Assembly: GCF_032854445.1 (NCBI RefSeq)
Contig: NC_088299.1
Span: 4,689,001 to 4,753,000 of the forward strand
DNA length: 64,000 bases
Direction: 5' to 3'
Origin: Liolophura sinensis
Lineage: Eukaryota; Mollusca; Polyplacophora; Chitonida; Chitonidae
The position numbers and the translations under genes were made by a program. Positions 25,435-63,288 of this stretch are shown in pieces (positions within the stretch are counted from its first letter, which is position 1; each line of letters opens with the position of its first letter). Under the pieces are notes generated by a model. The model was not told where the DNA came from and ran no database searches. It saw only the letters and a program-made list of their open reading frames with translations.

Positions 25435-27879
25435 TCAAAATATCTGCACTCGGTTGTTTCCGAAATCCACGACAATGATTAAACCGTCGGGGGAAACACA
25501 CAAGCCCGAGGGTCTGTCCAACTGCCCGGGGCCACTCCCCGCGGTGCCAAACTTACAGAGAAAGTTGCCGTTTGGCAGAAACACCTGGATACGGTGGTTT
25601 CTGGAATCGGCCACGATGATATTTCCTTCTGGATCGACGGCCACACCCTGGGGCCTCAGGAATTGGCCGTTAGACGAACCTTCCGTGCCCAGAAAACGGG
25701 CCGACTGGAAGTCGGGGTGTATGACCAACAGCCTGTGATTGTTGAAATCGGTGACGATCATGTAACCGTCTCCAGTGAAGCACACGCCTCTGGGGGAATC
25801 AAAATGTTTCCAAAGTGCTCCTTCAAAACCGTACTTGTTGAGAAACTGTCCGTCTCCGGTGAAGAGCTGTACCCGATGATTCCGTGTGTCGGAAACCAAG
25901 ATTTTCCCTTCAGAATTCACCGACACATCCCAGGGATAATTAAACTGGCCGTTCTTGTTGCCTTTCTCGCCGAATTTCAGAATGAAGGTGCCGTCAAAAG
26001 TGAAGAGCTGAATGCGGTGGTTGTCCTTGTCTGAGACGACGATGTGACCCTGGTGATTCGTGGCTACTCCCGCCGGCCGGTCAAACTCGCCGTTCCGGGA
26101 GCCAGGGGCGCCGAATTTATGGTGAAAAGTGCCGTCTGGGTTGAACACTTGAACTCTATTATTTGATCGATCAGCCACGATGATATAGCCGTCCCGATCA
26201 CAACAAATCCCCCACGGTCGGCAAAGTCGTCCCTGTTCCTCCCCTTCACCTCCAAACTGTAACAACATCGGTCCCACTGTAGCGTAATTTCTCCCGCTGC
26301 GTACGTCCACTGTAAACGGGCTGTCGTGAATGTGTTTTCCTCGAATAGTCACAGAAATGACATGCTTGCCTTCAGATTGGGGATGATAGGTAACAGAATA
26401 AGTCCCATTTTGATGATCGATGACGTCATTACGGTACAGCGCCCCCTCCGGGCTCTGTATGATCACCTCCATCGGGTCGCCCCCGACCACCCGGGCCTCA
26501 CCATGGTGATCCCGTGAGTGGACCGTGAAGGTGGCCAGCTTGCCCTTGAGTGCCCTTTTCAGGCCATCACCTGTCCCCATACAATGGGGCGCATAGCCGC
26601 TGCTGTTAATGAAGCCTATCTTAGAGATGGCGTTGTACAGCGCCGAGTCCGGTGAGGTAAAACTGATGTTTTCGTCTTCGTGTGGTTGCAAGTGACCGCG
26701 CAAGCGCCTCATCTGCTGGATTTCGGCCACCATGCGATCTTTAGTGTGCAAAACATCCACATCGCTGCCGGTGTGTAGTAAGTTTTCCACCTGCGCCACT
26801 GTCCGCGTCAAGGAAGTCAGGCCGTCCTTGAGGTCATCAATCTGTAGGTGTAGTGATTTTCCCTTCACTTGTCTTATCTTCTCAACCCTTCTCAGCAGGT
26901 CTCGCTCTCTTTCCTCTAGGGCAGTGATGTAGCGCCGGATAGTGGCCCGGATTTCCGCCGACACGGACTGTGACCGGTTCTCTACCTCTTCTGCCATCCC
27001 CTGACTCAACTGAATGCTCTCCTCGAGAGCTTTGATGCCTGCTTTGGCGTCCGCTAGTAACTTTACGGTGACTGTCTTCGAGTTCTCTATTGCATCTTGA
27101 AGGTAGATGAAACTATGGCCGATATGGTCGACCATGGTGCACTCTCTGCAGATGGGCTGCGCGCACGTGTCGCAGTATAGACGTAACACTTCATGTTCAT
27201 GGCGATCACAGTAGCTGGGGGGTCTGTCCGTGAGGGATAAATACTGGATAGGGGAGGATAGATTAGGGGATGGGGCCATGCTGTGGTGAATACCATTGCC
27301 GGCTGTAGATTGGTGACTAGCTGGTCGTAGCGTTTCTATATGGTGGTCCTTCGTTAAACGGACTCTTTGGTGCGCCCTAACGCAATTTCCGCACAGATAC
27401 TCGCTGCAGTTTTGACATAGGGAAGTGGCCTCGCTGCCCTCGTCACAGGAATTGCACCAGCGAGCGATCTGCCCTCTGCTCGAGTGCGACGTTCGCTCCG
27501 AGCCCCCGGGATCGTAGTCGTCCTCCTGTGAAACCACCACGTCAAGAATATTGCTAATAAACATGTTTGATGGTAGACTGTCGACTCCTGCTGACGTGAG
27601 GGGGACTACAGTGTGACAGGAGGGGCACTTGAGGCATAGTCCTTTGCCGAGGCCGGTGGGGTGGGAGCGACTGACCAGCCCGGCTAGGCAGTTCCTACAG
27701 AATGTATGAAGACATGGCAGTAATCTGGGGTCGGTGAACCTTTTCTGACACACAACGCAGGAGAGTTGTTCGCCGACCGAATCCACGTACGCTGCCATGA
27801 GCGTGGTAATACATGAGGTAGAGACGGGTTTAACACTCACGCCATTTCGAAAGGGCCCCTGGCCCAGAGCGTCAGGCAT
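25435..27879 (-). CDS. TRIM71: E3 ubiquitin ligase / RNA-binding repressor TRIM71 (LIN-41)
   Basis: Family knowledge: a RING ubiquitin ligase that binds mRNA through its NHL propeller and represses it in the cytoplasm during developmental timing. Seen, numbered from the ATG at 27879 (814 residues; human about 868): RING 41-88 (CVVC ... CLHTFCRNC ... CPSC), B-box 1 138-184, B-box 2 222-263 (YCDRHEHE), coiled coil 265-395, filamin domain 440-530, six NHL repeats 541-814, ending VDFGNNRVQIF. Two B-boxes plus filamin plus six NHL exclude TRIM2/TRIM3. All domains lie in one uninterrupted exon. Start: the open frame continues upstream to 27977, where the minus strand has an acceptor-like CTCTCAG, with a stop at 27994-27996; no ATG lies in frame between them. 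Translation therefore starts either at 27879 or in an unseen upstream exon; GTG at 27939 is not a credible animal start. The stop, TGA, is clear. Confidence 0.96.
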   Translation of the reverse strand: MPDALGQGPFRNGVSVKPVSTSCITTLMAAYVDSVGEQLSCVVCQKRFTDPRLLPCLHTFCRNCLAGLVSRSHPTGLGKGLCLKCPSCHTVVPLTSAGVDSLPSNMFISNILDVVVSQEDDYDPGGSERTSHSSRGQIARWCNSCDEGSEATSLCQNCSEYLCGNCVRAHQRVRLTKDHHIETLRPASHQSTAGNGIHHSMAPSPNLSSPIQYLSLTDRPPSYCDRHEHEVLRLYCDTCAQPICRECTMVDHIGHSFIYLQDAIENSKTVTVKLLADAKAGIKALEESIQLSQGMAEEVENRSQSVSAEIRATIRRYITALEERERDLLRRVEKIRQVKGKSLHLQIDDLKDGLTSLTRTVAQVENLLHTGSDVDVLHTKDRMVAEIQQMRRLRGHLQPHEDENISFTSPDSALYNAISKIGFINSSGYAPHCMGTGDGLKRALKGKLATFTVHSRDHHGEARVVGGDPMEVIIQSPEGALYRNDVIDHQNGTYSVTYHPQSEGKHVISVTIRGKHIHDSPFTVDVRSGRNYATVGPMLLQFGGEGEEQGRLCRPWGICCDRDGYIIVADRSNNRVQVFNPDGTFHHKFGAPGSRNGEFDRPAGVATNHQGHIVVSDKDNHRIQLFTFDGTFILKFGEKGNKNGQFNYPWDVSVNSEGKILVSDTRNHRVQLFTGDGQFLNKYGFEGALWKHFDSPRGVCFTGDGYMIVTDFNNHRLLVIHPDFQSARFLGTEGSSNGQFLRPQGVAVDPEGNIIVADSRNHRIQVFLPNGNFLCKFGTAGSGPGQLDRPSGLCVSPDGLIIVVDFGNNRVQIF
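27814..27821 (-). promoter_or_regulatory. let-7 seed match in the TRIM71 reading frame
   Basis: The minus strand reads CTACCTCA within the codons for V-S-T-S, just before the RING domain. Coding-region sites are generally weaker than 3' UTR sites, but this one is part of a four-site cluster. Confidence 0.35.
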
Positions 27880-28620
27880 ACCATTGCTGATCGGAGCTAG
27901 GCCGGGTTGGCTCCAGCCCAACCGCTCGTCCCGACACACATCGAAGCCCTCAATGGTGACTTTGAACGGAGTATTCCCTGAGAGTTTAGCCGATTAGAGT
28001 CACCACAAACCATAGCAATTTTATGAGGTAGATTGTAGGTTGTAATGTAAAGCGTCCCCTACCGTCAGACCGTTTTGTTCACCGGCAGTCCCCTTCACCC
28101 GTGTTAAATTCTCGAGACGCCATCTTTTACCACTGGATGCAGGCAGGCGGAGTAACCTGATTAATCATCAACTGTCAGTCCAGCTGTCGCTCCCGCGCGC
28201 TCAGCCAATCGAACCGCTCTAATCTAGGTTTTGTCACGCCCTCCTCCAATTCATGCTTTCTGACAAATGTGTCAAGGAATTTGACCCAGAACTCCCCTCG
28301 TTATCATGCATACAGTTGACATATACCCGACATCAGCGCCGTTCGGTTTAAAAGTCTAAAGTGCAGTCTTTGTCTAACTAGAATTGGCTAAATTTCTCTG
28401 ACAGTGATTTTCACTTTTCCGTCGCACAGCACGCGGAACCCGCCTCGTTGAACAAATAAGGCAATGTCCCCGCTATGATTAGTCCATAGCGCTTTACGTA
28501 ACATTATGTAACCTCCCAGTGGCGTGGTCTCCAAAACTCCGATTTACGTCATGCATGTTCCTGGGCGCGGGTAGCGATTGCACCGATGCAGACGGCAGAC
28601 ATTTTCCCCTCAGACCATAT
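27880..28620 (-). promoter_or_regulatory. TRIM71 5' leader and likely promoter-proximal region
   Basis: This stretch has more CpG and GC than the surrounding sequence, with GCGCGC-type motifs at about 28193-28201 and a minus-strand ATTGG (inverted CCAAT box) just beside them at about 28203-28210. No open frame spans it. A transcription start cannot be placed. A 5' exon may lie here if the acceptor at 27977 is used. Confidence 0.35.
28024..28047 (-). promoter_or_regulatory. Bipartite let-7-complementary element upstream of TRIM71
   Basis: The plus strand reads TGAGGTAG (let-7 bases 1-8), four extra bases ATTG, then TAGGTTGTA (let-7 bases 9-17). The minus-strand RNA would therefore pair with 17 of the 22 let-7 bases around a 4-base target bulge. 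No let-7 3-prime arm or hairpin follows on the plus strand, so it is a target-like element rather than a let-7 gene. It lies 145 bases upstream of the ATG at 27879. Confidence 0.5.
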
Positions 28621-29289
28621 AGAATCTATACATATTAAACATACATTTTTCCAAGGGGAACATATTATGAGCAATAACTATATATACAGTGTACATTGCA
28701 TTTGAAACTGACTGATACATAGGCACACAATTACTACACGCGGTAACACTATACGATATAGAGCTAAGGGCATGTCCACATGGGTATATTTTTACCTGGG
28801 TATATTATGTTGTCGTCATCATTGAACAGACAGATTTTTGCATCTGGAAACCGTTACATAGCTTGAAGGCCCTGCGCAGCTGACGACGCGTACTTCTAAA
28901 AGGCAATCAGGAATGTTGCAGTATTGCAAAACTGTATCGTGATATGGTCTTATGTAATTGCTTGCAAATGACACCAAAACTGTTGTGTCTGTTGTAGAAC
29001 TAAATTATAAAGGAGAGGACGTAAACCTGCTCTGCTGTGTTGCGGCTGGCCTAGCTGGAAATCGATTATTAAGCTGTCTCTCAGACTAATCAGTTTTTGC
29101 AGCACTGAATTATTGGCTTTTTAAAAGTACAGCGCGGGAATGGAGTAACTTGAATGACCGTGAAGAATTGCACGTTAAATGAAGCCACATGAACGAAGGC
29201 ATGCTCCAATCAATAGATTACAGCAGCAAGTGAATGGCTGGAGTGCTATCTCATGAATGGATGTGCAGAGATGAATGGACTGGTCGAAT
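28621..29289. other. Non-coding spacer
   Basis: No supported gene or repeat. Confidence 0.35.
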
Positions 29290-29304
29290 TCATGACACAA
29301 TGTC

Positions 29305-29670
29305 GAGCATTGATTAAAACACTGCTCCCAGTCTAATATGAATGTATTGAAGGTATTTCGTGTTTATGAACCATTTCACCCAGGTGCATACACGTATAGT
29401 TATTCAAAATGACCATTAATGGCATACAGTTGTGTTTGTTTCATCCATAAACTTGCCGTCACTGTTTCGGGGCGAGTTCGAATCCACGTATTGATTAAAA
29501 CAGAGCATTCACTGTAGTTTGAATTGGTTGAACCGAAACAAAAGGTATAATCGTGTGTTTGAACCATTTCATATTATTCTGGTGGTATATATCTAAATGA
29601 TTAGATATATACTGTTTTGTTTCATCTGTATAACCTACCATTCCTGGAAGTTCAGATCCGGCTTAGATCT
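29305..29670. repeat. ~180-bp diverged tandem duplication
   Basis: Two diverged copies share GATTAAAACA (29312 and 29493), 'TGAACCATTTCA', 'TGTTTGTTTCATC' and 'GTTCGAATCC/GTTCAGATCC', at a spacing of 176-181 bp. Non-coding. Confidence 0.6.
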
Positions 29671-30858
29671 TTTTGTAACTAATTCGACTTCACAGGTATT
29701 TCCCCGAACCGTTTGCGTTTAAATACAGTTGCCGCGTTTGTGATACAACATGTTCAGCGTAGGCTTGAATAGCAGCGTGAGATATTGAGAATTCATGAAA
29801 ATAAATCATTTGCACCCCCCTCCCACCCACTCACCCCCCCCCCCACTCACCCCCGGCCCCCAACACATCCCCAATGAGCATATGCTTTACTGGGTATGGC
29901 GTTTAGCACACCTACAAACAAGCTTCGATTACTTTCCCTTGTTACGTCACAGCACATGCCCAAGTACGTTTGTTCACGTTTACCCAACATACATATACGG
30001 TATAGGCCTGTATTGGAACAGAACTAAGTAGTTAATTGCTTTACAAGAAAAGGTGTAATTCAGCCGTGTTGTAGTTACCTTTATATTGTACACACCGTTA
30101 ATGAAGACCCACCTGGCCCACATTGTGTAAGTTCATCCAAGTTGAATAGCACTCGAGAGAACCTCAGGCTTTGTAACAAAAACACGTGCTAAATACGTTA
30201 TCATATATAACGTGATTAAAACTTGGCTGCATGCGTGTGGATTTTTGAGCTCAAATTAGTCCATTATTTAGCAGAGAATTTGTCGTTAGCTGACAACAGT
30301 ATGCGGTATGGAAGCCGGTAAAGGCCACCATTGTACCAGTATTGTACGACTGAACAATGATGGATTTTACTGGCTTCCATAATTCGGGGCCCTAATACAG
30401 AATGTATACAGTAAGAACTGCACACAGAGCTCCAGAGTTTTTAAACGAAACTGCATTTAACATCAAATTTGGTGGAAGCTAGGCTTTTCATTGACCGGAA
30501 TTTATGTGACGGCACCCCAAAAGGTGAATGTGATAATGTTAAAAGCATTTTCATTTCGCTATTCAATTAGTTATGGTTTTATTTATTTAGTTATTTACTT
30601 GATTGTTGTGTGAAACAATTTTCTAATCTAGATATATACCACTCAGGTCTGTTTCATGAGTAAATGATATTCGGGATTACGTGGAGTAAACCTGTGACCA
30701 TTGGCATGTTTCTGACGAACTATTCCTCTTGTATATAGTGCTTATTATGAAATTATCACCCATAAATGGACTGCGAACAATGAGAGCAAGGAATCTACAA
30801 ATTGCCCAAGACCAGGATTTAATACGCACCTTCATATCTAGTTGTTTGGCCGCTGTAT
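29671..30858. other. Non-coding spacer
   Basis: No supported gene. A long C-rich tract lies at 29814-29861. Confidence 0.4.
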
Positions 30859-31020
30859 ATTTATTTATTTATTTATTTGATTGGTGTTTTCCGCCGTACT
30901 CAAGAATATTTCACTTATACGACGGCGGGCAACATTATGATGGGGGGAAACCGAGCAGAGCACGGGGGGAAACCCACGACCATCCGCAGGTTGCTGCATG
31001 ACCTTCCCACTCACGGCCGC
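30859..31020 (-). mobile_element. SINE-A copy lacking the head (minus)
   Basis: An (ATTT)n tail and a well-preserved core up to 'CTTCCCACTCACGGCCGC'. The tRNA-like head is absent. Confidence 0.9.
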
Positions 31021-31479
31021 TGTACAAGTGTACAGCATATGTGTATATGGGGGTAGGGGAAGTGGCCATAACCCTTAGGAATTAAGAAGACTGTACATAC
31101 AAGGGCAATGAGCGAAGCGTGTTAAACAGCATACTGTCATTCAGTTCTTTCCCACTCAGTATCAGCTATCCGAAAGGTAAACTTTATCCAAACTCGGCTT
31201 GGATCTGAAGTGTTTTCCCAGATGGTCCCTCTAGTTGAAAGTTACGCCCACTGATATAACCCAACATGTGGGACCCCCAGCTATTAAAGCAGATGCCGCC
31301 CGTCGAAATGACAAGTGTAATGTATTCCGATCTGTGGCAGTAATCAAACTCTATGCTTATAGCTTAAGCAAATGCTAAAAACAAGGTCTTCACAAAATGT
31401 CATATATAGGTCCATGCTTGTGCCATAATGCACCACCGTCAAAAAAAATCTCCAGTTAAATCCGTTCAATGGGGCATTC

Positions 31480-31495
31480 AACGGATTAATCCGTT
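31480..31495. promoter_or_regulatory. Perfect 16-bp palindrome AACGGATTAATCCGTT
   Basis: This holds two abutting TAATCC/GGATTA half-sites, the core recognised by K50-type homeodomains such as Otx and Pitx. Near copies lie at 31458-31465 (AATCCGTT) and about 31533-31548 (AACGGATTAATCTGTT). A regulatory role is inference only. Confidence 0.3.
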
Positions 31496-31615
31496 TCTAA
31501 TACATGTATATAATGAATTAATCGGTAATCGTAAACGGATTAATCTGTTAGATCGACGGAAATGCATAGTTACCATGGCTACTTAAAAGTAATGTCACGA
31601 AAATTCAAAAGTTCA

Positions 31616-31880
31616 GGGGCCTCCGTGGCTCAGTTGGTTAGCGCGCTAGCGCAGCGTAATGACCCAGGAGACTCTCACCAATGCGGTCGCTGTGAGTTCA
31701 AGTCCAGCTCATGCTGGCTTTCTCTCCGGCCGTATGTGGGAAGGTCTGTTAGCTACCTGCGGATGGTCGTGGGTTTCCCCCGGGTTCTGCCCGGTTTCCA
31801 CCCATCATAATGCTGGCCGCCGTCGTATAAGTGAAATATTCTTGAGTACTGCGTAAAACACCAATCAAAAAAAAAAAAAA
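31616..31880 (+). mobile_element. Full-length SINE-A with target-site duplication
   Basis: The head is at the left: GGGGCCTCCGTGGCTCAGTT, with the A box TGGCTCAGTTGG, then the B-box-like GAGTTCAAGTCC. It is followed by the core and an A-rich tail. AAAATTCAAAA flanks it at 31600-31610 and 31887-31897, a likely 11-bp target-site duplication. This is the cleanest full-length copy in the window and suggests recent insertion. The head is not a functional tRNA gene. Confidence 0.93.
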
Positions 31881-31897
31881 AAATCAAAAATTCAAAA

Positions 31898-34800
31898 ATT
31901 CCACAGACTGATGAAAAAACTATTTTATTGCTGGTGAAAATAAATACATCACTAGGATTCCATCATCTATAGATTATACATTCAATACTGTTGTTCCCCG
32001 CAATGTCTGGCTTGCTACCCTGTTTAAATGACGAAATATTAAATCTATTGGTTTTAGTCCAAAAGTCAATAAACAAATGTAATTATTTTTATATAAAATA
32101 TCTGAATATACTGCTTCATCCTCAAAAATAATAATAAAAATAATAAAAATAATTGATAATAGCAAAACCATATTTTTTTATTTACAGACATGTATAGATG
32201 AATGATAAAATAAACTGATTTACTTCAATTATTTTTATTATTGAGGGACTTCGTCTTTTGGGCAAATCTATAATTCAAGGCTGAGACATGCGGCACCACG
32301 TACATGCACATGTTTACCTTTTAAAAGAATTCAAAAATTTAATGCATTTAATTCAGCAAAGAAAATTCCCCCCAAAATACATAAATAAACATAGCTTCTG
32401 ATATAGCCTTTGCTGTGTTTTTCTGCTTATGCTCCTGTCTTTGTTAATAATTTTTTCACTTCCGACTGTACCTAAAAAAATTTAACGAACTTAAAAATTG
32501 CAACTGTTACAGATATAAACAGAATTGTCGACTCTTATTTCCTGGAGATATTTTTTTAATAAATTCTGTATTTAAATCTACAATAAAGATTTTATTTAAT
32601 TCCATTGGTTGCTTACTCAGTCTATTTAAGAATACATTTCACTCATATGACGATGTTTATTCCTAAAAAGGAATTAAGGAAAAGCCAGTCAAAATTGTTC
32701 AAATACCATTGTTATAAATATATCCCATTGCTAGACCTCTGTGGATGAAAACTGAACCAGTATTCCTACACAACTATAATTGTTCTACTAAGAATTAAAA
32801 CTGTCAGTTACATGTCAGTTTGTGGAAGAAATGTACATGTGCAGTTTTCTGTGTTGTATTTTTATTTATTAGCAATCATGGTACACATGATTATACGCAT
32901 TTATCAATTTATGTACAGCCGACAAATAGATGGTAACTTACATATGGCCTACAAAATGGCTGACCTCGTGTTTTGGATGTTCTGGAACAACAGGCCGTGT
33001 ACATATATGTATATACCTCTACAAAGACATGCGCAGATAGGTGTTTACACCAACGTTAGCTTTGTCGTGTCTCCATATTGGTTTTCGCTCAGGCCCCAGC
33101 CATGATTGAATGAACAAGAGTGTTGTTCTAAAAGCCAGGGTCAAGCAGATGGTTTGTCTCGATCAAGTCGAACCCCGCCGGTCCATGACGAACCCTATCC
33201 CAAACTGACCCGCCCCTTCCGCCTAGAGGGGGGCATTGGTAAATTTATGCGACCACTACAGTCACCCCGTGAAAAGGAAACGTCTTTAGGCGGATTTGTC
33301 TTGTTTACGTCTCGAGTCGCCGGTATGTGTAGGCGGGTGTTATAGCGTCCAGTCCCTTGTCCGTCATCTGAGTGACCCTTATTCTGTGTACACCCTACCC
33401 CCACCCCTAAACGCTGTATAGGATCTTCAGACTTAACAAACACACAAGCTGGCCACACCGTCAGTCTAAAGGTGACTATCACCTTCGACCAACCAGATAA
33501 TACGGCCACTCCCGGAGTTGACCACAAGCGCATGATAAAAATGGTCTTAATAGGTTTAGACTAAATACTAAAGGGACAGGCTGTAGGCCTATGGTAGGGT
33601 AGGGTGTGGTGAATTTAACCTGTGACGATCTCTTTCGCCTTTCTCTGTGTTTAGTCCAACAGCTGAAACGGACATCGTGTACATGGCAAAATCAACAGTG
33701 GGCGAACACACAGGCGACGGCGTGTGAAAATATTCCTGTTTTAACATAATTTAAAATAAAATAAAAAAAAAATACACTTCACATGTAACAAGGAATTGTT
33801 TGCTTGTCATTACATTCCGACGACCGGAAGCATTTTGACTTTTTAAAATTTAATACCGAAAACGAAACAGTGTATAGGGCCTTTGTAGTATAACAATACG
33901 TCAGGTGCACATATCTATATATATTAATGTATATATAATATACAAGATCAAAATTAACATAATTTCCATGCCTTAACTTGATATATTCTCACGTAATTTA
34001 TAGGTTTTGGCAAGGACACCCTAAAAATCCATGCCCAAAGGTTCCGTGTTGCTGTCTAAAAATGTAGTCCCCTCATTCGTATCGATTCTAGCTTGAGCAT
34101 TTGTCCAGTCCGCGGGAATTGAAGTGTATGTGTATATACAGCGCAGGAACACGGCACGGTGCATGATTTGGCTTTCAACGTCTGTGGACCAGACTGTAGT
34201 TGCATCAGAAGCTATATAAGAATTATCGATCTAAGATGTGATCAAATGGCCAATGAAACCGCGAAATAAGCCCATGTACATGTAGCCAATATGGTTGAAT
34301 AGGTACTACATTTTAACGCTCATGGATACATCGATCTTCTCCGCATATTACATGACACTAGCTAGATTAGCATGCTTAAATTTTGTCCATTTAATGACAT
34401 ACAAGTATTCGTCATCCAGTACAATATTGCCAGTACGTGATACCTATATCGTGTACTTCGTCATGACAGTTCACCGCTAGCTCTGATAATACAAGCTATA
34501 CACCGTTTATTGATTTTTTTTTCTTTCGCCATTTTTCTTTACAGACACAAATTGTGGTCGTAAAAGGCCATTGCTGTTTTCAGTCTTTTAGGGAGATGTC
34601 ATTTTCAGCCATTTTGATTTTTCAGTTCTGTTGGCTGCATGTATACGTGTACATTGCATACAACGAGTGACGTCCAAGCGGGTACATGTACAAGCCCTAT
34701 ACATGACACTAAAAGAGGATGTGCTATACAAAACTTAATCGATGTATGTATGTAAGATGTAAGATGTGCCCTGCCATCATCAAGGTATAATTACATATAT

Positions 34801-37209: not shown

Positions 37210-37211
37210 TT

Positions 37212-37472
37212 CTAAAATGATACCAAATTTACGCTGATTGATTGTTTTGGAAATCTCCGGCATAGCCTCTTTAAAATGCCTTTTAAATCTTTAATTACAG
37301 CATCGTCATGCGGCAAAGCAGTCAAGTCGAAAACAATCATCTCACCATACAGAAACCAGTTTGCTAGGCATACCATACGCATGTCACCCACATCAAGGAC
37401 AACGTCATATTTTAAACGCTGTTGTCCTATTCTGTTTACGGGGCCCACAAGGGAAAGGTCTGTGTTAGTCGC
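37212..37472 (-). pseudogene. Unrecognised coding-looking fragment
   Basis: A minus-strand frame of about 85 codons has protein-like composition: a charged C-terminal helix-like stretch after 'LTALPHDDAVIKDLKGILKR', preceded by 'KYDVVLDVGD'. It follows an in-frame TAG, with acceptor-like CAG at its left border in transcript terms. I do not recognise the family. It could be an isolated exon, a gene relic or chance. Confidence 0.25.
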
Positions 37473-38186: not shown

Positions 38187-38238
<52 letters not shown>

Positions 38239-40522: not shown

Positions 40523-40635
40523 CGAGGGCTTTCCCCGGGTTCAGCCCGGTTTCCTCCCACCATAATGCTGGCCACCGTCATTATAAGTGAAATACTCTTG
40601 AGCACGGCGTAAAACACCAATAAAGTAAAAAAAAA
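40523..40635 (+). mobile_element. SINE-A fragment (3' part)
   Basis: Starts within the core (TTTCCCCGGGTTCAGCCCGG) and runs through 'CACCATAATGCTGGCC' to the A-rich tail. It directly abuts the minisatellite. Confidence 0.88.
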
Positions 40636-46627: not shown

Positions 46628-46632
46628 TTATT
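46627..46632 (-). promoter_or_regulatory. AATAAA overlapping the CNOT10 stop codon
   Basis: On the minus strand the last codons read CAA-TAA-AAG, so AATAAA contains the TAA stop. If used it would give an almost absent 3' UTR; it may be coincidence. Confidence 0.25.
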
Positions 46633-52600: not shown

Positions 52601-55600
52601 TGTGGAAGCTGAAATATTTTGACCATGATATCATTTTACCTTCCAAACAAACCTCAATAAACCTTTCTAAGATCCACAGAACTTTCAAGGGAGATAAATG
52701 CTGTCAATCATAGGTTCTGAAAAGCTTTATTAACCACCAAAACTTAAGTTGCTGAAAAAAATGTTGTAAAATGAACAATACACAGGAAAAAAACATCTTG
52801 TGTTCTCAAGTTGTTTAAATTAATTGGATGGTAAATAAGGCAAAGGTAAGAAAAAGGTGACCTAAAAAGTGATAAGTTAATGTAAACAATACAAAGCTTT
52901 GAACAGAAACCCTTGCCATTGGAATTATTTGAATAATTCTGATTCAATAAAACACCAAATGAATAAAAACATTATTTAAATTTTGCAAACATATACTATG
53001 AGTTAAGTTTCATTTACTATTCTCTACAATTGTGTGACTCAGTCAATATATCACTCTTGACACCCAAAATGGACACATATTTATTGGTACTTTAGATGCT
53101 GATAGAAAATATACGATCTTAGGTATTAGCAAACTAATGGAATGAATGAATGACTATGGCTTTAACACACAAGTGGACGGTCAGTCAGTTTTTACTGTAC
53201 CTCAGGTTGGCGACTTCTGGCGGCCTCATGGGATTGGCAGGGGGAGCTGGCACCAAAACCACCTCAGGAGTTTTACTGTAATGAAACAAGAGAAAAATAA
53301 CACCATTGGTTTAAGAGTTAGAGAGGCTATACCTCAAAATGTGACAAAAAATATACTTAGAAATGGTAACGATGTACCAAAGAGCTCACATGTAGGAGTC
53401 ACATGAATGCAAAACTTCAGCTCAATACATGAAGTACTGAAATCGTGAAGTTGGTAATTTACGGTAATTAATACGCACACAGAGAATCAGCGACATCTGT
53501 GTGATAGTGCTTTACATGCATGTAAGACTTCAGCTCAATACATGAAGAACTGAAATCGTGAAGTTGGTAATTTACGGTAATTAATATGCACACAGAGAAT
53601 CAGCGACATCTGTGTGATTGTGCTTTACATGCATGTAAGACTTCAGGTCAATACATGCTGTACTTTTCATGATACCACCCCTAACACTCTGTTTAACTTG
53701 GATTCTAACATACAATACACTACGTCAAGAATTTGGTAATTCGCTGTATTTAATATCCACACACCATATCAACAATGGAATATCACCCTCGTGTTATTGT
53801 GCTCTACGTCTGTCCAAACTCTGAGCTCAATAAAAGTATTTTCTTTAACACTGCATTCCCTGTAACTGGATGCCAACCCCTACGCTCACGCTACAACATG
53901 TATTTTGCACCAGCGAGCCAGAAAACTGATCAAAAGCTAATCAAAACACATTTTCCTAATATTTCCTACATAAACCACAAGCACACAAGAAAAGATATAC
54001 CCTTTGATGGAATAAGTCCAAAACACAACAACATGAATCTACATTTTACCAGATGGAACAATATAAGGAGGTTATCAAAGTCAAGATTGGTCAATGAATT
54101 CATGCTTGTCTGGTCACAGTTACCTCCCCTCAGTCTGCTCATCTGGAGACACTGGGACAACCGTGGCTGGGTCGTCTGGCAAAAGAGCTAGGGCGTTCCT
54201 CAGACACAGGGCAGCGAACTCCAGGGTAGCCATTGGGATCGCTGCTGATTGGGTCCTGTAAATAAGAATCATAGAATTACCACAGTAAAACTGAATGGCG
54301 CAAGGAAAGTATTTGATTTTTGACCTCTTTTTGCCTGTTTTAAAGATGCTTATTCAAGCACATTCTGATAGCATTATTCTGTGTAGACTAACCAAAACCA
54401 TACTTTCTGTAAAAACCCTGTAATAGGCCAACCCAACCAATGTAGTTTTGTCTCCAAAATCAAAATTAAAAAGGTGCATAAATCATACTGAAATGTGATT
54501 TTTCCCATACGAAATGTTTTACAAATTAGGACGGCTATAATGGAAAAACCTGTGGTTGTTAACTTGGTGTAGATTTGAACGAACTGACAGACTGTAGCAC
54601 TTACCTGGGTACATAATTTTCAACTCCAGCTCCCAGGATAAGCTTACGGTGAATTCCACTCCCTACTGATCCTTTTACTGGTTCTAGACGTTTGGCTAAG
54701 GATCGATCTTCTTCATTGTTCTAAAAATCCACAAATATAATCTGCACATATCAACTGCAAGCTTACTTCATATAGCACATATCTGTGGATCATTCCCCAA
54801 AACCATCAGGCTGTCTTGGACTTAAGTCAGACCTGGTCTTAACTTCAAAACAGTTTACTGTTCTGAAATTGGGACTCATGGAATTGGATTTAGAAATTGG
54901 ATTTTATTTTAGAACCAAGGTTTATCTTAAACCTTCATGATGAAAATGAAAATTAGAGTTCAAGTTCAAATCTAAGTTGTGGGAAGGTCTGCCAGCAACC
55001 TGCGGATGGTTGTGGGTTTCCCTCTGGGCTGTGCCCGGTTTCAACCCACCATAATGCTGGCCGCCGTCGTATAAGTGAAATATTCTTGAGTACAGCGTAA
55101 AACACCAATCAAATAAATAAATAAATAAATCAAATCTAAGTTCAAAAATAATACTAATAATAAGTTAAGACCATTTGAAGTCAGACTTAAGTATTCATGA
55201 TCATGGTCTCTTCGTAAAGTATGGTGACACCAACTTTATTTTTTGTGCCGCCACTCAAAAAAAAAATCCAAAAATGGGATAAAATTAAAATTGAAAATCC
55301 ACCATTTTATTGTGTCTGATCACAATATTTTTAATGATTTTCCTATTTGTCAAGGCATTCAAATCACATAACAGGAACAATTCTACCTTACCCACAAATA
55401 AGATTATTTTTCCTTCCAACGACACTGGTAAAAGATCAACAAAAAGTTATTTATTTACTCAAGAATATTTCACTCATATCACGGCAGCCAGCATTATAGT
55501 GGGAGGAAACCGGGCTCGGGGGAAACCCACGACCATCTGCAGGTTTGAAACTGAACGTTAAACTGGTGTCAATGGATGAACTGTAGACTTACCGCCCTGT

Positions 55601-58600
55601 ACTCCATGATACAACACTCGGCTAATCTGAGCCACAGCCTGGGGTTGGTCTGGAATCTTTGTACAGCCTCAATCAGACAGTCAAATGCCGCCTCAGGTTT
55701 CCCACAATGCAACAACTCGATCCCTATGTTGTACATCAGCTCATGGTGGCGACTCGTGCACTGCAGCAAAGTCAGCTGACCTGATGCTGCTTTCCCTGTA
55801 AGAAAGATTAACACATTAGCAGAAAGATTATACTTCTGTTCATTTATCTATTTATTTGAATACTCTTTAACGGCACAGAATGTTTGGCTTATACAATGGC
55901 TATCAGTTTTATGGGTAGAGGTTTTAAGTGTCCAGCGTAAAACCTCCAACCTATGGCAAGTTACTGATGAACTTTCCCACATGAGACGCACGGATCATAA
56001 GCGCTCTATACTGAGTGAGTGAGTGCTTGGGGTTTAATGTCATACTTAACAATTTTTCAGTCATATGACAATGAAGGAGTGCATGTAATGTGCCTCATTG
56101 TTGCATGACAGATTTCCACCGCTCTTTTATCTGGTGCTGCTTCACTGAGACGCCTTACTGTAGGCAAGTAAGCCGCCCACCCATCAACAATGATCTTCAA
56201 CAAATGTTAACGGACTGTGAAAATGGCCCTATGAGTTTTGCTGACCGCTTATTGTCACCACTAATGGCGAGAAAGCAGAAGAGACTATGCATACCAGTCT
56301 CACACCTATGCGAAGTTAATAATCGGCTTAAAACATGCATGAAATATGTGCATTTCAGGATTTGCCATTTTCAAAACCTTCTGACCATTAATGGAAACTA
56401 TGCATAAAATAGAGGAACAGTTTTGAGAAATACAATCTTTTTTCCCCAAAGTGAATTTTTTTCTTTGTTCTTTCATTTTTCATTTTTTGGACTTTATTTT
56501 CAATATTTACCACAAAACATAAACTGCACTCAAGGGTTGCTTTTCATGTAATCCTGAACATCTTTATACATTTTTGAACAACTTTTTGGACAGCCTTTGT
56601 ACCTGACTCCGACTTGGTTGATTCTTTAATGACGTTCTCATTGCTGTTGATGGCCTTGCGAAAATAGAAGGCACCCAAGTGGTGTTTTCTCATGTGAAAA
56701 TGTGTACAGCCGAGATTGTTGAAGTACATAACTGGCAGGGACTCTCCACTAGCTGTCAACTCCTGGGTCTGAGGGGTAGAGCCCAGGATTTTGTTGGCTT
56801 TCCGGAAATTACCGCGGATATATTCAAAATTGCTCCTCAGGTATCCGAAGGATGTTGACTGCAGAAAAGGACAGAAATGGATTCAGAATAGCCACAAGCT
56901 ACCTCGATTAAAGGAAAAGGAAAACCATTTTTGAAAATACTATATTTCACCCAAATTGAAAAATTCTGTTTGATTTAGCCACATTATACGGTGACCTCAG
57001 AGTGTTTTATGAAGTTTGATTAGTTAGTTATCAGAAACAGAACTGACATGCTCTGAGTGTCATGGCAACAAAACACTGCGTAAATTACATATTATGCTTG
57101 TTAAGACTATACCCAGTGTCAGTCAGCATTATGGTGGGAGGAAACCGGGTAAAGGAAATGTGAGGGGTGAGGGAGTGGGGGAACCCACAACCTGCACCTG
57201 AAGAGGAAACCAGCATGAGCTGGATTTGAACTCACAGTGACCCCATTGGTGACAGGCTCAAGGGTCATAGTAATGCACAAGCTTGCTAACCACTCTGACC
57301 TAGAGGCCTCAAATTAAGTTCGTAAAATTCTAGTTCTTACTGATGACACAGCATTCACCAAGGATTTGATCTCTCTCTTACAGGACTTCAATGACTTCAC
57401 CATCAAGTAACACCTGGCTTTATACTGTCAACAACAACGAAAATGAGAGAATATGATCAATGTGCAGTCACAAGCTGCAAATGCATGCACATTTTAAAAA
57501 TGCACTTCACAAACACGAAGAACAAAGTATAATATCACCACCTTATACAGCTGCTTGTTGCAGCTAACCACGCAAAATTTCAACAAACGTCACTACGAAT
57601 CAATGATATGGCTTATTGTCACTTCAGCAATATTTCAGCCATATCGTGGCGATAAGTAAAAAGGAAACACTAATGAATATGCAAGGGGGCTAAGCTTTTT
57701 TAATTAAAAAAAGATTTTTTTCATCAACAAAAAATCTTAAACAGGCTGAAATATACATGGACATATAATTGAATGGATAACTTGATAGCTGTCCAGAATC
57801 TTTCATTAAGAGTTAACAAAGGTGAAAAAAAAAGACAAAAGGGTCTTTGTATTCTGCATGTTCAGTTAAAATTCATTAACATTTTTTAGTCAAAAACAAC
57901 TTTTCTGGAATGAAATAGATTATTTGGCAATAAAAAAAAAATCCAAAACCAAAACAGAGAATTACTAACTTGACTAATACGAATTTTTGTTGCATCATTG
58001 ATATCTACATCTTCTGGAGAATCCCCTTTATCTCGGCTGTTCTCTTTACTGTCCTTACTCCCTTCCTTTTCCAGCAAGGATCCTCCAGCAGCTGCTCCTG
58101 ACTTACCACCATTAAATAATGCTTTCTCCATGTAAGCTAGCATTCCGATGCCCTTCTCAGGCTACAAAGTACAAATGTATTTATTTATTCATTTCATTTT
58201 TGTTTAACATTAAACATTTTTCACTTGCATGATACAGTGGCCAGTTTTATAGGTGTAGGCAAATACAAAATATAAAAACAGGCTGATGAAGATAATTTCA
58301 TAAGCAAATACAATGGAATGAAATGTTTCAAAAATTTTTAATATTTAAGTTTACTTTCTTTAAATAAAAATCCTAATACATATAACAATATTTTGTTACT
58401 TTCTTTTTTCATTTAGGCTTGGACAAACCACTGTGGATTTATGGATAGTTGACCACAAATGTACAGTTCACTCTTACATTACCCAACAATTAGTAACATG
58501 TAACATCTCTTAGTGACTTGTCCATAACACAAGAATGAGAAACTCGGGCGAAAAGAGTTGGTGAAACATATACTACATGTTCCTTACTTCTTCAACCTTT

Positions 58601-61600
58601 TCAAACACCTCACCAACCAATATTTTGAAACATTCTGAGATGGGGTGTAGCGAAATAATTTCCACAGTTTTATGACGCATTCCTCTATAGTGTCATTTTC
58701 ATACTAAGTGTCATTTTCATAATAAATGGATGATTTAAGTCCACTGAAAAAAGTGCTTCAGTGATTGACAAGATTAATGATTTACAGTAGGCATTCCCTC
58801 CAAAAACTAGCTGGGATTTGCAGATCTCCTATACAATTAAGTAGACAATGTCATCGCTCAATCAATGTTGTGATGTTGTGCAGTAGTTCCTCTAACATTC
58901 AAGTTTATGCTAGCTGTGTATTAGATTTCATCACGTACCAGCTTTCACTGTTCGCTAACTCCATCTTTAACCATGTGCCAGATTTATCTGTGTTCCAGCT
59001 TTCCTGTGTGCTAGATTTATCTGTGTTCCAGCTTTCAATGTGTGCTAGATTTATCAGTGTGCCAGCTTTCACAGTGTGCTATAATTCATCTGTGTTCCAT
59101 CTTTAGCCGTGTGCTAGATTTATCAGTGTGCCAGCTTTCACAGTGTGCTAAAATTCATTTGTGTTCCATCTTTAACTGTGTGGCATCTTTAATTGTGTGT
59201 TACATTATTCTGTGTGCCAGCTTTCACTGTTTTAGTTTTAACTGTGTGCTAGCTATCTCTTTGATAGCTTTAAAGGATATATGAAAAGGTGCTATAAAAC
59301 AGATTATAGTATGGTTTTAAGAAAAATGAAAAAAAATTCATCTGTGAGGCATATTTTATATTTAATAACCACTTTATTTTATGCATATTTTCTGTGAATG
59401 ATTGTAAAATATTCAGAAATGACGTCATCAATGAAAATACTGGGAATACCGCACCAGGTTAACCCTCTCAGGGCGGGCTCTTCCAAACAACATAGTTATT
59501 TTGATAGCTTCCACCACTGACAGCTATCACCACTGACATCACCACAGCAGGCTACTTAATTTACGGACCAAACACTCAAGCCTTAGGAATACTATAGTTT
59601 AAACCCATTTTCATGCCTCAAGAAGAAGCTAAGAAACATTTGTGTACTTTTCGGTATACAGTCCCTATCAAGAAACAAAAAAAGTTATGCTTTAATTGCA
59701 TCATAGGTTTATCTCTCACCTGGTTTGTGCAAAGATACAACTCTACCAGCAGAAACATCACCTTTTTGGCCAAGCTTTCTTCTGGAAGCATAAAAACATA
59801 TCTTTGGGTTAGACATTCTGGGCGATAATCATGAAGCAATCAAAATGAACTGCACTTCCATGTGTGTACATGTATTTTCCTAAGTCATAATGCGTATTAT
59901 GAAACTGCATGAAATTTCAGCCCATATACAGGATCATTTAATACTCAACTTCTCTCTCTTTCCCACAAAACTTAACAGTTCTAAAAGAAAAGAAATTCTC
60001 TGGACATTTTATACTGGAAATGAACGCTACCTGTACTCTCTAAAACAATATGCTTCATTCAATTATTAGATTTCTTTTATTTTTGGTGGGGGGTGGGGGG
60101 AGCAATTTTTTGTTGAGAAACTAACAGGCTCTAAAGGTAGAAAAATAAGCCATGACACAAAGGTTACCTGTACATAGCGGCCTTTTGTAGCTGACATGTG
60201 GCAGTAGTTACATGCGGTGAATACGGAAGGCTCACAATATTACAAGATTGTAAGGCTAAACGGAAGTCAGTAAAATACATACAGTGCCTTATACACGATC
60301 ACTGCAACTGACACACCTAAAAAATTTTAGAAAACCATTTTCAGGACATAAGTACATGTACTTACCCAAAGGTTCAATGAACTGGAAGAGCTTGTCCACG
60401 ATGGTGAGTGACGCTCTATACTGATGAAGCCTGTACAGTAACACAGCCTGATTGTAGTAAATAATACCATGGTCCACATCCTCTACACTCTCAGCATTTT
60501 CTGATGGAATATGAGACTGCCAAGTAAACAATTTACACATTTACATGAAGGTGAATTTCACAACTTTATTTACTGAGAAAAAAGTGTTATGCTGGCTTCC
60601 TCTCCGGCCGTACGTAGGAAGGTCTGCCATCAACCTGCGGATGATCGTGGGTTTCCCCCAGGCTCTGCTCGTCTCCTCCCACCATAATGCTGGTTGCCGT
60701 CGTATCAGTGAAATATTCTTGAGTGTGGCGTAAAACACCAATCAAATAAATAAATAAATAAATAAATAAACCAGGAGACAGGACACTGCAATCTCTCCCA
60801 ACATATGCATAAAACACCAATCAAATAAATCGAATAAATCAATACCTAAATCCATCACTGCCAGTTCTGTGTGAAGTAAAGTAGGATTTCAAATCGGAGA
60901 ATCCTATTACACTCCCACAAATAACGCACTCCTGAGACTAAGTCCAGGTCAAGGTGTATTGGCATGACACACCTGACAAAGGGGAGAATGAATTTAGGTG
61001 TGCTATAAATAAACACATACAGTCTCTTGCAAGGAGTGACATACCACACTGTAACACCCGCACAAAAACAAAAATGAAAGCCTGTTCACTGAGAAGTTTT
61101 CACAGAAGTAAAAAGGCTCCATATTTTTAAACATTGTTCTCACATTTGGTAAGCTTCTTGTTTAAGGAGAGTTTTCAGTTTTCAAAATTCTACAGTACTG
61201 TGTCCATTAATGCCTTTCATGGAATAATTTTCTGAAGATGGATTTTTAAACGTATATTTAGTGTGAGTAATAAATACTAAGGGCATAAATTAAATGAAAA
61301 GGTTGCATTCCATAAATACTGTTCTCGCAAAAGGCCAAATGATAATCAACCTGGCATGAAACGCGAACATTATCCTTTAATTATATGATTTTTGATTAAC
61401 ACACTACACAGGCATTTTGCACATATATCATAGACAACAGTTTCATTCCTAGAGGACAAAAGCCCTTCACTGGGTTCACACCACAGGTTTAACAATATGA
61501 ACTCACCAACTGACAGACTTTGCTCAAGGCTTGTCGAAACTCTGCTGTTTTACAAAACTTTGAGCTGTAAAACTCTGTCACAGCTTTGTTGTGCACCACT

Positions 61601-61791
61601 TTGGGGTCATTTGACCTTTGACTCAAAAGTTTGTTTATTGTTTGGCTGCACTGTTCATACTGTGCCTTGTCAAACTCCTGCATCGCTTGATTGGCCACCT
61701 CCCTCTGGTGTTCAGTGACAGGTGGTAGAGAAGGGGCAGGCAACTCCTGCTTCTCAGTCTGATCATCTTGCTTCTGCAGGTCTGCCATCAT
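46628..61791 (-). CDS. CNOT10: CCR4-NOT transcription complex subunit 10
   Basis: TPR-type scaffold subunit of the cytoplasmic CCR4-NOT deadenylase; in the family it pairs with CNOT11 on the CNOT1 N-terminus. Coding exons in transcript order: 61791-61507, 60516-60366, 59781-59720, 58161-57970, 57424-57341, 56858-56603, 55795-55593, 54720-54605, 54255-54124, 53275-53201, 52268-52155, 51844-51714, 50800-50732, 50081-49960, 48517-48445, 46773-46628. Every intron is GT-AG and the phases agree throughout, giving 736 residues (human about 744). Conserved stretches I recognise: YYNQAVLLY (exon 2), FNNLGCTHF (6), NPRLWLRLAECC (7), EFAALCLRNAL (9), AKAMMQYNLA (14). Exons 4 and 13 encode charged low-complexity linkers. 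The start is ATG-ATG at 61791; an acceptor-like TTTCAG at 61812-61817 suggests a 5' UTR intron. Introns hold several SINEs and tandem repeats. Exon limits were read by eye. Confidence 0.95.
46945..46981 (+). repeat. G-rich tract
   Basis: Runs of G (GGGTGTGGTGGGGGGAGGGG and following) in the last CNOT10 intron, with four or more G-runs able in principle to form a G-quadruplex on the plus strand. The CNOT10 RNA carries the C-rich complement. Confidence 0.6.
48558..48598 (+). mobile_element. SINE-C fragment, left half (split by SINE-A)
   Basis: ATTTTAATTAAACACCATAC, then CAATTTCTCACTCG, resembling the start of a third repeat family seen at 55837 and 58168. It continues at 48889 after an inserted SINE-A. 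Confidence 0.5.
48599..48877 (-). mobile_element. Full-length SINE-A in CNOT10 intron 14 (minus)
   Basis: Tail at left, complete core, and head at right ending 'GCTAACCAACTGAGCCATGG' then AGGCCCC (A box on the minus strand TGGCTCAGTTGG). Flanks TTTCTCACTCG (48588) and TTTTTCACTCC (48878) match at 9 of 11 bases and suggest a decayed target-site duplication. Being opposite to plus-strand genes, it is sense with CNOT10. Confidence 0.93.
48889..48985 (+). mobile_element. SINE-C fragment, right half
   Basis: 'GGGTGGAGGAGGCTGGAAGT' and 'GGCAAATTACTGAAGAACAT' match the third family at 55837-55984 ('GGCAAGTTACTGATGAACTT'). Confidence 0.55.
49128..49187 (+). repeat. Inverted repeat, left arm
   Basis: TTTATGCACCTTTTTCATTT, then GGAGACAAAACTACATTGGT and TGGGCTGGCC. 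Its near reverse complement is at 54424-54484. Both lie in CNOT10 introns (14 and 8). Confidence 0.75.
51028..51302 (+). mobile_element. Full-length SINE-A in CNOT10 intron 12 (plus)
   Basis: Head GGGGCCTCTGTGGCTCAGTT at the left, core with a small expansion near 51175, (AAAT)n tail. CCTTGGATTC (51016) and CCATGGATTT (51303) flank it, an 8 of 10 match suggesting an aged target-site duplication. It is antisense to CNOT10. Confidence 0.93.
52437..52705. repeat. ~158-bp diverged tandem duplication
   Basis: Two diverged copies in CNOT10 intron 10 share 'TTTTGGTGT', 'ATATCAT', 'CAAACCTCAA' and 'CCTTTCTAA', with a period of about 158 bp. Confidence 0.5.
53405..53840. repeat. 113-bp tandem repeat in CNOT10 intron 9
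   Basis: Two nearly identical 113-bp units (ACTTCAGCTCAATACATGAA, then CGTGAAGTTGGTAATTTACG and CAGCGACATCTGTGTGAT) at about 53414 and 53527, followed by a diverged third copy to about 53840. The 138-codon open frame at 53775-54191 overlaps the diverged copy and exon 9 and is not supported. Confidence 0.9.
54424..54484 (-). repeat. Inverted repeat, right arm
   Basis: Reverse complement of 49128-49187 with a few differences. Located in CNOT10 intron 8. Confidence 0.75.
54979..55129 (+). mobile_element. 5'-truncated SINE-A with perfect 13-bp duplication
   Basis: Begins at 'GTGGGAAGGTCTGCCAGCAA' and runs through the core to an (AAAT)n tail; no tRNA-like head. TCAAATCTAAGTT occurs at 54966-54978 and 55130-55142 without mismatch. 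Lies in CNOT10 intron 7. Confidence 0.93.
55448..55545 (-). mobile_element. SINE-A fragment (minus)
   Basis: TTATTTATTTACTCAAGAAT and a core to 'ACGACCATCTGCAGGTTT', with internal deletions. Lies in CNOT10 intron 7, opposite to the copy at 54979. Confidence 0.82.
55837..55984 (+). mobile_element. SINE-C copy
   Basis: Third dispersed family: 'TCTATTTATTTGAATACTCT', 'GGCTATCAGTTTTATGGGTA', 'CTATGGCAAGTTACTGATGA', 'ACTTTCCCACATGAG'. Other fragments are at 48558-48985 and 58168-58255. No tRNA head was identified, so the class is tentative. Confidence 0.55.
56010..56190 (-). mobile_element. SINE-B fragment
   Basis: GAGTGAGTGAGTGCTTGGGG, then 'TTCAGTCATATGACAATGAA' and 'GGCAAGTAAGCCGCCCACC'. Cut off before the tRNA-like head. 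Lies in CNOT10 intron 6. Confidence 0.82.
57115..57311 (-). mobile_element. SINE-A copy lacking the tail (minus)
   Basis: 'GTCAGCATTATGGTGGGAGG', a diverged core with a G-rich insertion, and a head ending 'GCTAACCACTCTGACCTAGA' then GGCCTC. Sits in CNOT10 intron 5, ending just before exon 5. Confidence 0.82.
58168..58255 (+). mobile_element. SINE-C fragment
   Basis: 'TGTATTTATTTATTCATTTC', 'TTTTTCACTTGCATGATACA', 'GTGGCCAGTTTTATAGGTG'. Lies in CNOT10 intron 3, just beyond the exon 4 boundary. Confidence 0.5.
58905..59270. repeat. ~31-bp minisatellite in CNOT10 intron 3
   Basis: About 10 imperfect units of GTGTGCTAGATTTATCTGTG and TTCCAGCTTTCA. The plus-strand open frames here are artefacts. 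Confidence 0.85.
60588..60770 (+). mobile_element. SINE-A copy lacking the head (plus)
   Basis: Begins 'TATGCTGGCTTCCTCTCCGG' and has a complete core and an (AAAT)n tail. A second tail scrap (CATAAAACACCAATCAAATA) follows at 60808-60840. Lies in CNOT10 intron 1. Confidence 0.92.
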
Positions 61792-63280: not shown

Positions 63281-63288
63281 GGATTTGA

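Follow-up and report, generated by a model that had tools for sequence, protein, structure and literature searches.

Cis elements located inside bystander genes or close to them are named in the literature as the main accepted mechanism by which microsynteny is kept (PMC5722932, PMC3826495). The microsyntenic pairs and regulatory blocks of Irimia 2012, Engstrom 2007, and Kikuta 2007 (via PMC3826495 and PMC5722932) resemble the locus described here in joining unrelated neighbors, one developmental and one apparently constitutive. The target here would differ in being an RNA-binding ubiquitin ligase instead of a transcription factor, with two lineages compared. On a larger scale, 256 new blocks of three or more genes each arose in the bilaterian ancestor and were largely retained in lophotrochozoans; vertebrates lost 84% of the blocks of this age (PMC8851819). 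The vertebrate ancestor inherited 70 blocks, fewer than the 110-124 in shuffled genomes (PMC8851819), and therefore vertebrate retention is not generally above chance for such blocks. Most bilaterian-age blocks (Robert et al.) are gene-dense and more co-expressed (PMC8851819), unlike the reading proposed here, an observation that speaks against a regulatory-block view.

The closest described arrangement is that of human 3p22.3, where the genes nearest to a translocation breakpoint are CNOT10 (telomeric) and TRIM71 (centromeric) and no gene is disrupted (PMC4967518). The genes tested in that work were DYNC1LI1, CNOT10, TRIM71, and CCR4, a list that is not stated to be in map order. The carrier had Mullerian agenesis and otherwise no known related anomalies. 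In the carrier's lymphoblasts, two other 3p22.3 genes, CMTM7 and CCR4, were altered (PMC4967518); thus long-range effects exist at this locus. With the pair split by the break, neither CNOT10 nor TRIM71 was significantly changed in these cells, which as an observation in its own right counts against a regulatory block (PMC4967518). The two genes are nearest neighbors in human and adjacent here, but human TRIM71 and CNOT10 have 4 and 19 coding exons, respectively (PMC4967518), compared to 1 and 15 here. None of the outer human neighbors is seen in the window (the whole 64-kb stretch of DNA that was analyzed), which ends 2.2 kb past CNOT10 and leaves DYNC1LI1 out of view. Our literature search found no paper treating the CNOT10 and TRIM71 pair as synteny; the excerpt of a duck TRIM paper that we used mentions synteny and does not include CNOT10, and a coleoid preprint names neither gene.

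The window contains the following genes and intervening region:

25435-27993, minus strand: open frame of TRIM71/LIN-41 in a single coding exon, with the domain order RING-Bbox-Bbox-filamin-NHL
27994-46627, no strand: intergenic spacer of 18,634 bp, of which 3,591 bp are tandem arrays and SINE copies listed by hand
46628-61791, minus strand: coding span of the CNOT10 gene, with 15 coding exons that encode 713 aa plus stop
61507-61791, minus strand: CNOT10 coding exon 1
60366-60516, minus strand: CNOT10 coding exon 2
59720-59781, minus strand: CNOT10 coding exon 3
57970-58161, minus strand: CNOT10 coding exon 4
57341-57424, minus strand: CNOT10 coding exon 5
56603-56858, minus strand: CNOT10 coding exon 6
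55593-55795, minus strand: CNOT10 coding exon 7
54605-54720, minus strand: CNOT10 coding exon 8
54124-54255, minus strand: CNOT10 coding exon 9
53201-53275, minus strand: CNOT10 coding exon 10
52155-52268, minus strand: CNOT10 coding exon 11
51714-51844, minus strand: CNOT10 coding exon 12
49960-50081, minus strand: CNOT10 coding exon 13
48445-48517, minus strand: CNOT10 coding exon 14
46628-46773, minus strand: CNOT10 coding exon 15 plus stop; final 37 residues outside the PDB alignment

A Pfam domain search placed a RING, two B-boxes, a filamin domain, and an NHL propeller on one TRIM71/LIN-41 chain. Among the best 60 of 128 PDB matches, the top match of this open frame is TRIM71 (6fpt_A; E 9.8e-187, 626 bits), to which its filamin-NHL portion is identical at 268/389 positions (68.9%), followed by Thin (230 bits), TRIM2 (~181), Brat (134), and Mei-P26 (85). 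Judged by its domains and PDB bit scores, the frame is an intact TRIM71/LIN-41 orthologue; the far lower scores of TRIM2 and Brat among those best 60 of 128 matches (~181 and 134 versus 626 bits) exclude a TRIM2/3 or Brat identity. As the coding part is intronless, a displaced retrocopy was also considered and was rejected because the neighboring CNOT10 is as in human, which would mark an ancestral locus. Compared with viral contigs, the TRIM71 protein yielded two pattern matches but no relative; SINE core patterns had no match in viral or genome contigs.

The CNOT10 protein aligns colinearly with CNOT10 chain 8bfi_B (residues 8-676 on 11-708; E 1.8e-156), and the three PDB sequences that match it with E no higher than 1e-10 are all CNOT10. 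Its reading frame is open across all 14 exon joins, ruling out a pseudogene; each of the 14 introns begins with GT and ends with AG, the exon borders having been picked to give this. On the colinear match and open frame, this is likewise an intact orthologue.

Both genes lie on the minus strand with CNOT10 upstream, and the gap between them (27994-46627) measures 18,634 bp. The earlier note had described CNOT10 upstream of TRIM71, co-oriented and separated by a gene-free gap, and this arrangement is borne out: its coordinates and gap (18,634 bp, no Pfam domain) were correct. The adjacency of the human genes is in print (PMC4967518). They are presumably also in the same orientation, as the earlier note had it. 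Translated in six X-coded frames, the spacer yielded no Pfam domain at E up to 0.01, by a method that finds TRIM71 in its own frame as a positive control. Three ORFs carrying single CNOT10 exons gave no Pfam match at E up to 0.001, and therefore a spacer gene with small, domain-poor exons could escape such a search. Six-frame Pfam searches of the flanks (1-25434 and 61800-64000) returned no match, so that no recognized gene appears for 25 kb beyond TRIM71, and Rfam (at gathering scores) and tRNA searches returned none either.

CNOT10 followed by TRIM71 is probably an ancient microsyntenic pair, which is a known kind of arrangement. By our estimate, the probability that a given adjacency, ordered and co-oriented, would re-form by chance is ~1/(2G), or ~2.5e-5 for 20,000 genes. 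The order would thus be inherited from a common ancestor rather than re-formed, and, with the animal presumably a mollusc or another lophotrochozoan as its SINE suggests, the pair would date to the bilaterian ancestor. With two lineages compared and the same orientation presumed in human, it is likely that it has been kept since the protostome-deuterostome split. If it holds across phyla, the pair offers a compact test case for gene order surviving over half a billion years.

The explanation that we consider rather probable is that this ancestral pair is held together by distal elements of TRIM71, with CNOT10 as a constitutive bystander and with no co-expression of the two. TRIM71 would be the developmentally restricted target, its regulatory DNA residing in the spacer, which is CpG-normal, or farther away, and the transcription unit of the constitutively expressed CNOT10 would border this DNA; the distal elements, not co-expression of both genes, would keep the pair together. 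The base composition of the window bears on this division of roles:

45751-62500, no strand: CpG-depleted block, observed/expected 0.38 versus 0.84 outside; coincides with CNOT10

This block is the best segment of a gene-blind CpG segmentation (gain 75.5; none of 200 permutations of the bins, scanned at half the resolution, exceeded 12.6) and matches CNOT10 nearly exactly. The observed/expected CpG ratio is 0.37 in CNOT10 coding exons and 0.38 in its introns, compared to 0.85 in the rest of the window, and the loss of CG within the block is accompanied by an excess of TpG and CpA, fitting methylation decay. A tandem array at 5-6 kb, far from CNOT10, is equally low (0.36). With CpG depletion as a proxy, CNOT10 alone looks as if it were germline-methylated, and the opposite CpG classes suggest a constitutive CNOT10 and a restricted TRIM71. 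The pair would then place a constitutive mRNA-decay subunit next to a classic heterochronic gene, separated by a clear border in CpG class, and this step allows a direct test of the co-expression hypothesis. The shared control proposed in the earlier note, if taken to mean co-regulation, is weakened: it is not supported because CNOT10 alone occupies the CpG-depleted block, and the human translocation between the genes changed neither significantly in lymphoblasts.

Passive retention, in which the pair is merely unbroken because slow-evolving genomes keep old adjacencies, with no regulatory or functional constraint, is possible though less probable. It fits the large-scale retention of the 256 bilaterian-ancestor blocks in lophotrochozoans (PMC8851819), the tolerance of a human translocation that splits the pair (PMC4967518), and the different CpG classes of CNOT10 and TRIM71, but the repeat-rich 18.6-kb spacer offers room for breaks, and human still has the pair although 84% of such blocks were lost in vertebrates (PMC8851819).

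The favored reading, in which distal TRIM71 elements hold the pair, concerns the locus; at the transcript level, the following microRNA sites were found:

28024-28031, minus strand: let-7 8-mer lying 5' of the TRIM71 frame, with long 3' pairing; strongest minus-strand let-7 duplex found
27975-27982, minus strand: miR-125/lin-4 8-mer within the TRIM71 open frame, 5' of both candidate start codons
27814-27821, minus strand: let-7 8-mer, 15 nt ahead of start 27798; part of the coding sequence should 27879 be the start
25198-25205, minus strand: miR-125/lin-4 8-mer, 3' of the TRIM71 stop codon
23764-23771, minus strand: let-7 8-mer in the possible TRIM71 3' UTR, 82 nt ahead of an AATAAA (from 23681)
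22880-22887, minus strand: let-7 8-mer, extended pairing; belongs to the 3' UTR only where the UTR passes 22.9 kb

All sense-strand 8-mers in the window (4/4 for let-7, 2/2 for miR-125) are thus at TRIM71; the CNOT10 sense strand has none for either microRNA and one intronic let-7 7-mer at 52067. Duplex energy alone was rejected as evidence for let-7, since -23.2 kcal/mol is attained at a site whose seed match is not intact, as was the miR-125 count alone, two or more 8-mers occurring in 24 of 100 window shuffles. Sites for both microRNAs in the lin-41 3' UTR are stated for bilaterians (PMC4382986), and TRIM71 here similarly has two let-7 and one miR-125 8-mers 3' of its stop codon, although their placement in the UTR depends on the transcript end; another AATAAA (from 24870) precedes that from 23681 in the possible 3' UTR. 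These sites suggest that TRIM71 would be a post-transcriptional target of let-7 and miR-125, as in other animals.

Three extra sites (3/6) mark the difference from lin-41; they lie immediately 5' of the RING-proximal ATG, and the strongest of the predicted let-7 duplexes is among them. Of the two candidate start codons, 27879 and 27798, the latter is placed relative to the RING in what we take to be the manner of the vertebrate TRIM71 start. We know of no 5' let-7/miR-125 brake for vertebrate or worm TRIM71/lin-41, and the 5' sites could add a layer to lin-41 control. More tentatively, and unlikely as a whole, the sequence may combine a bilaterian-age regulatory block (TRIM71 elements in the spacer, CNOT10 as methylated bystander) with let-7/miR-125 sites at both ends of the TRIM71 mRNA, those in the 5' leader or at the start codon (a lin-41-like let-7 site and a miR-125 site) forming a second brake.

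CNOT10 is one among many CCR4-NOT subunits. That two mRNA-repression partners are kept adjacent for co-regulation appears improbable. Functional clustering of this kind, and the earlier note's proposed link between TRIM-NHL repressors and CCR4-NOT, accord with the C. elegans germline, where the two act jointly: CCR4-NOT components occur in LIN-41 pull-downs, and depletion of NOT1 or CCF-1 de-represses a LIN-41 target reporter (PMC10602926). The link did not extend to somatic LIN-41 targets, for which CCR4-NOT seemed dispensable (PMC10602926). The binding of LIN-41 to CCR4-NOT in worms is a possible functional link but leaves the gene linkage unexplained. Bilaterian-age blocks do tend toward co-expression (PMC8851819), but the opposite CpG classes and the lack of let-7 or miR-125 8-mers on the CNOT10 sense strand argue against it for this pair. 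In the portion of PMC7145526 used here, CCR4-NOT appears only as background to nonsense-mediated decay.

A false join of the two genes within 28-46.6 kb is very improbable, for although the spacer holds tandem arrays at 39.2-40.5, 41.3-41.9, and 44.0-44.8 kb, typical places of assembler failure, the 64-kb window contains no N, a SINE family is common to both sides, and such a join would need to reproduce the human gene order by coincidence.

The two genes lie on the minus strand in the order CNOT10, TRIM71, confirming the neighbourhood described in the earlier note:

61791 to 46628, minus strand: CNOT10, 15 coding exons encoding 713 amino acids plus a stop
25435-27993, minus strand: TRIM71, a single open frame encoding a RING domain, two B-boxes, one filamin repeat, and NHL repeats

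CNOT10 was first indicated by two single exons matching CNOT10 chains (6.8e-21 and 1.1e-6), whose non-CNOT10 matches all exceed 0.04. Further exons were located with three X-coded frames, and exon 8, the final two exons, and the exact borders by reading translations; exons 3, 4, 10, and 13 score below 0 bits alone and are convincing only within the full alignment. All 14 introns begin with GT and finish with AG, but because the borders were picked to give these ends, the better test is the frame, open across all 14 joins, together with the colinear alignment to 8bfi_B (residues 8-676 on 11-708, E 1.8e-156), beyond which the final 37 residues fall. The match to the PDB CNOT10 chains, which we take to be mammalian, is far from identity, so the animal is probably not a vertebrate. 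Against Pfam the full protein gives weak TPR matches only, with a single one, TPR_14, exceeding its cut-off. From its sequence, the gene looks intact. An AATAAA hexamer at 46627-46632 overlaps the stop codon and would allow a very short 3' UTR.

The top PDB match of the TRIM71 frame is TRIM71 6fpt_A (E 9.8e-187, 626 bits, 268 of 389 aligned residues identical), followed, among the best 60 of 128 matches, by Thin (230 bits), TRIM2 (about 181), and Brat (134). In-frame candidate start codons lie at 27879 and 27798; with the latter, the distance from the N terminus to the RING is as short as we take it to be in vertebrate TRIM71. There is one coding exon here, in contrast to four in human. Pfam domains are absent from the outer flanks searched (1-25434 and 61800-64000), the CNOT10 side being 2.2 kb in view. 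Downstream of TRIM71, positions 1-22400 (over 22 kb) lack a Pfam domain on both strands and are a possible gene desert.

The spacer between the genes (27994-46627) measures 18,634 bp, 3,591 bp of which are hand-listed tandem arrays and SINE copies. Its six frames contain no Pfam family at E up to 0.01, in an X-coded search that recovers the TRIM71 domains in TRIM71's own frame as a control and would miss a short-exon gene without Pfam domains, as three ORFs each holding a single CNOT10 exon gave no match. No N occurs anywhere in the window. Its main repeats are:

39205-40521: tandem array, 58/173 bp units, in the spacer
44293-44834: tandem array, 22/44 bp units, in the spacer
1450-2200: tandem array, 24/48 bp units
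5020-5805: tandem array, 39/143 bp units
31615-31884: example of a dispersed SINE with a tRNA head; copies lie on both strands, e.g. at 10865, 30857, 45294, 48604, and 54979

The four large arrays are candidate assembly-collapse sites. The SINE is presumably of the mollusc/MetaSINE type, known from molluscs and related phyla.

We take human CNOT10 and TRIM71 to share one orientation, and chance re-formation of one given ordered, co-oriented adjacency would have a probability of about 1/(2G), or 2.5e-5. That the two are neighbours in human rests on printed breakpoint data: mapping of a patient's 3;16 translocation placed the 3p22.3 break within 13.6 kb, reportedly without disruption of any gene, and the nearest genes were TRIM71 towards the centromere and CNOT10 towards the telomere (PMC4967518). 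The tested genes include CMTM6, CMTM7, CMTM8, DYNC1LI1, CNOT10, TRIM71, CCR4, GLB1, TMPPE, and CRTAP, a list that makes no claim of map order (PMC4967518). These two endpoints, with the animal taken to be a mollusc, make deep conservation of the pair likely; were it an invertebrate deuterostome, the case for great age would weaken. Robert et al. inferred 256 new microsyntenic blocks in the bilaterian ancestor versus 45-56 in shuffled genomes, each block having at least three genes with up to five intervening genes, a looser definition than a direct pair (PMC8851819). Bilaterian-age blocks were largely kept by lophotrochozoans and 84% were lost in vertebrates, whose ancestor inherited 70, below the 110-124 of shuffled genomes (PMC8851819). 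Retained neighbourhoods are thus a known class, and the CNOT10-TRIM71 pair is notable but not unique in kind.

The earlier note had proposed that retention may reflect shared regulatory DNA in the spacer or in CNOT10 introns. Genes under shared control should resemble each other in chromatin class, for which we used CpG content as a proxy. CpG observed/expected is 0.38 in CNOT10 (introns 0.38, coding exons 0.37) versus about 0.84-0.85 in the remainder of the window, and a scan blind to genes returned one best deviating segment:

45751-62500: CpG-depleted block with sharp edges, coinciding with the CNOT10 coding span (46628-61791)

Its log-likelihood gain is 75.5, against a maximum of 12.6 in 200 bin permutations scanned at half resolution. 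One-kb windows inside and outside CNOT10 differ at p 2.3e-8 (14 vs 47 windows, picked in knowledge of the gene's position and excluding three border windows), and some outside windows are also low, with a minimum of 0.36 in the tandem array at 5-6 kb. CG shows the largest change among the 11 dinucleotides compared, TpG and CpA are in excess inside CNOT10, and smaller shifts affect TA (0.74 vs 0.93) and CT (1.06 vs 0.85). This pattern suggests that CNOT10 is likely methylated in the germline as a gene body and that TRIM71 and the spacer are not. Counting against a simple CpG reading, the relevant passages of a methylation study describe methylated regions without obvious relation to CpG content.

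We consider it somewhat better than an even bet that the pair is inherited, CNOT10 being a constitutive bystander that would adjoin the developmental target TRIM71, an arrangement with which the CpG contrast fits. A bystander beside a developmental target is the accepted model for kept pairs (PMC5722932, PMC3826495). Our confidence is slightly reduced because two results of Robert et al. speak against it; a bystander and its target are at odds with the gene density and higher co-expression of most bilaterian-age blocks (PMC8851819). Passive retention is preferred alongside this explanation, and either is favoured over co-regulation, since the CpG classes of the two genes differ and co-expression is therefore disfavoured. 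The same contrast makes CNOT10 introns a less likely, if conceivable, site for TRIM71 elements. In lymphoblasts of the person whose translocation separates the two genes, 4 of 20 tested genes changed, those on chromosome 3 being CMTM7 (0.22 fold) and CCR4 (0.64 fold), with CNOT10 and TRIM71 not significantly altered (PMC4967518). Long-range effects at 3p22.3 exist, none of them on CNOT10 or TRIM71 in the lymphoblasts reported (PMC4967518).

A functional link between TRIM-NHL proteins and CCR4-NOT, also proposed earlier, is real biochemically and partial: CCR4-NOT components occur in C. elegans LIN-41 pull-downs, and in the germline a reporter of cfp-1, a LIN-41 target, is de-repressed once NOT1 or CCF-1 is depleted, whereas for somatic targets CCR4-NOT is seemingly dispensable (PMC10602926). 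CNOT10 is unnamed in that paper's passages on LIN-41 and CCR4-NOT, the link concerning the whole complex (PMC10602926), and such a link does not require gene linkage.

The candidate microRNA sites, of which those on the sense strand all lie at TRIM71, are:

28031, 27821, 23771, and 22887, minus (sense) strand: let-7 8-mers, all four of that strand in 64 kb
27982 and 25205, minus (sense) strand: miR-125 8-mers, both of that strand in 64 kb
19587, other strand: the only let-7 8-mer there

In a 5,859-bp stretch picked after the sites were seen, let-7 8-mers number four against a shuffle mean of 0.06 (four reached in 0 of 2,000 shuffles), and CTACCTCA is the most frequent among the 420 8-mers of its composition. 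For miR-125, two 8-mers stand against a shuffle mean of 0.08 (two reached in 9 of 2,000 shuffles), 7 of the 1,680 8-mers of that composition, the miR-125 one included, occur twice in the stretch, and the count over the whole window is nothing unusual (equalled or exceeded in 24 of 100 shuffles). All six sense sites lie at most 3 kb from the frame, a margin set afterwards, with a chance of 5.7e-6 for placement alone. The strongest predicted let-7 duplex on the minus strand, scanned in steps of 3, is at 28031 (-23.6 kcal/mol; a seven-pair seed, then a bulge of four bases and ten further pairs), a shape that we take to resemble the worm lin-41 sites; the second-strongest (-23.2, at 12748) lacks an intact seed match. 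The lin-41 3' UTR carries let-7 and miR-125 sites across bilaterians (PMC4382986). Here, in contrast, candidate sites also occur 5' of the RING-proximal start at 27798, where two let-7 8-mers (28031 and 27821) and one miR-125 8-mer (27982) span 218 bp (27814-28031), and this position is the unusual part.
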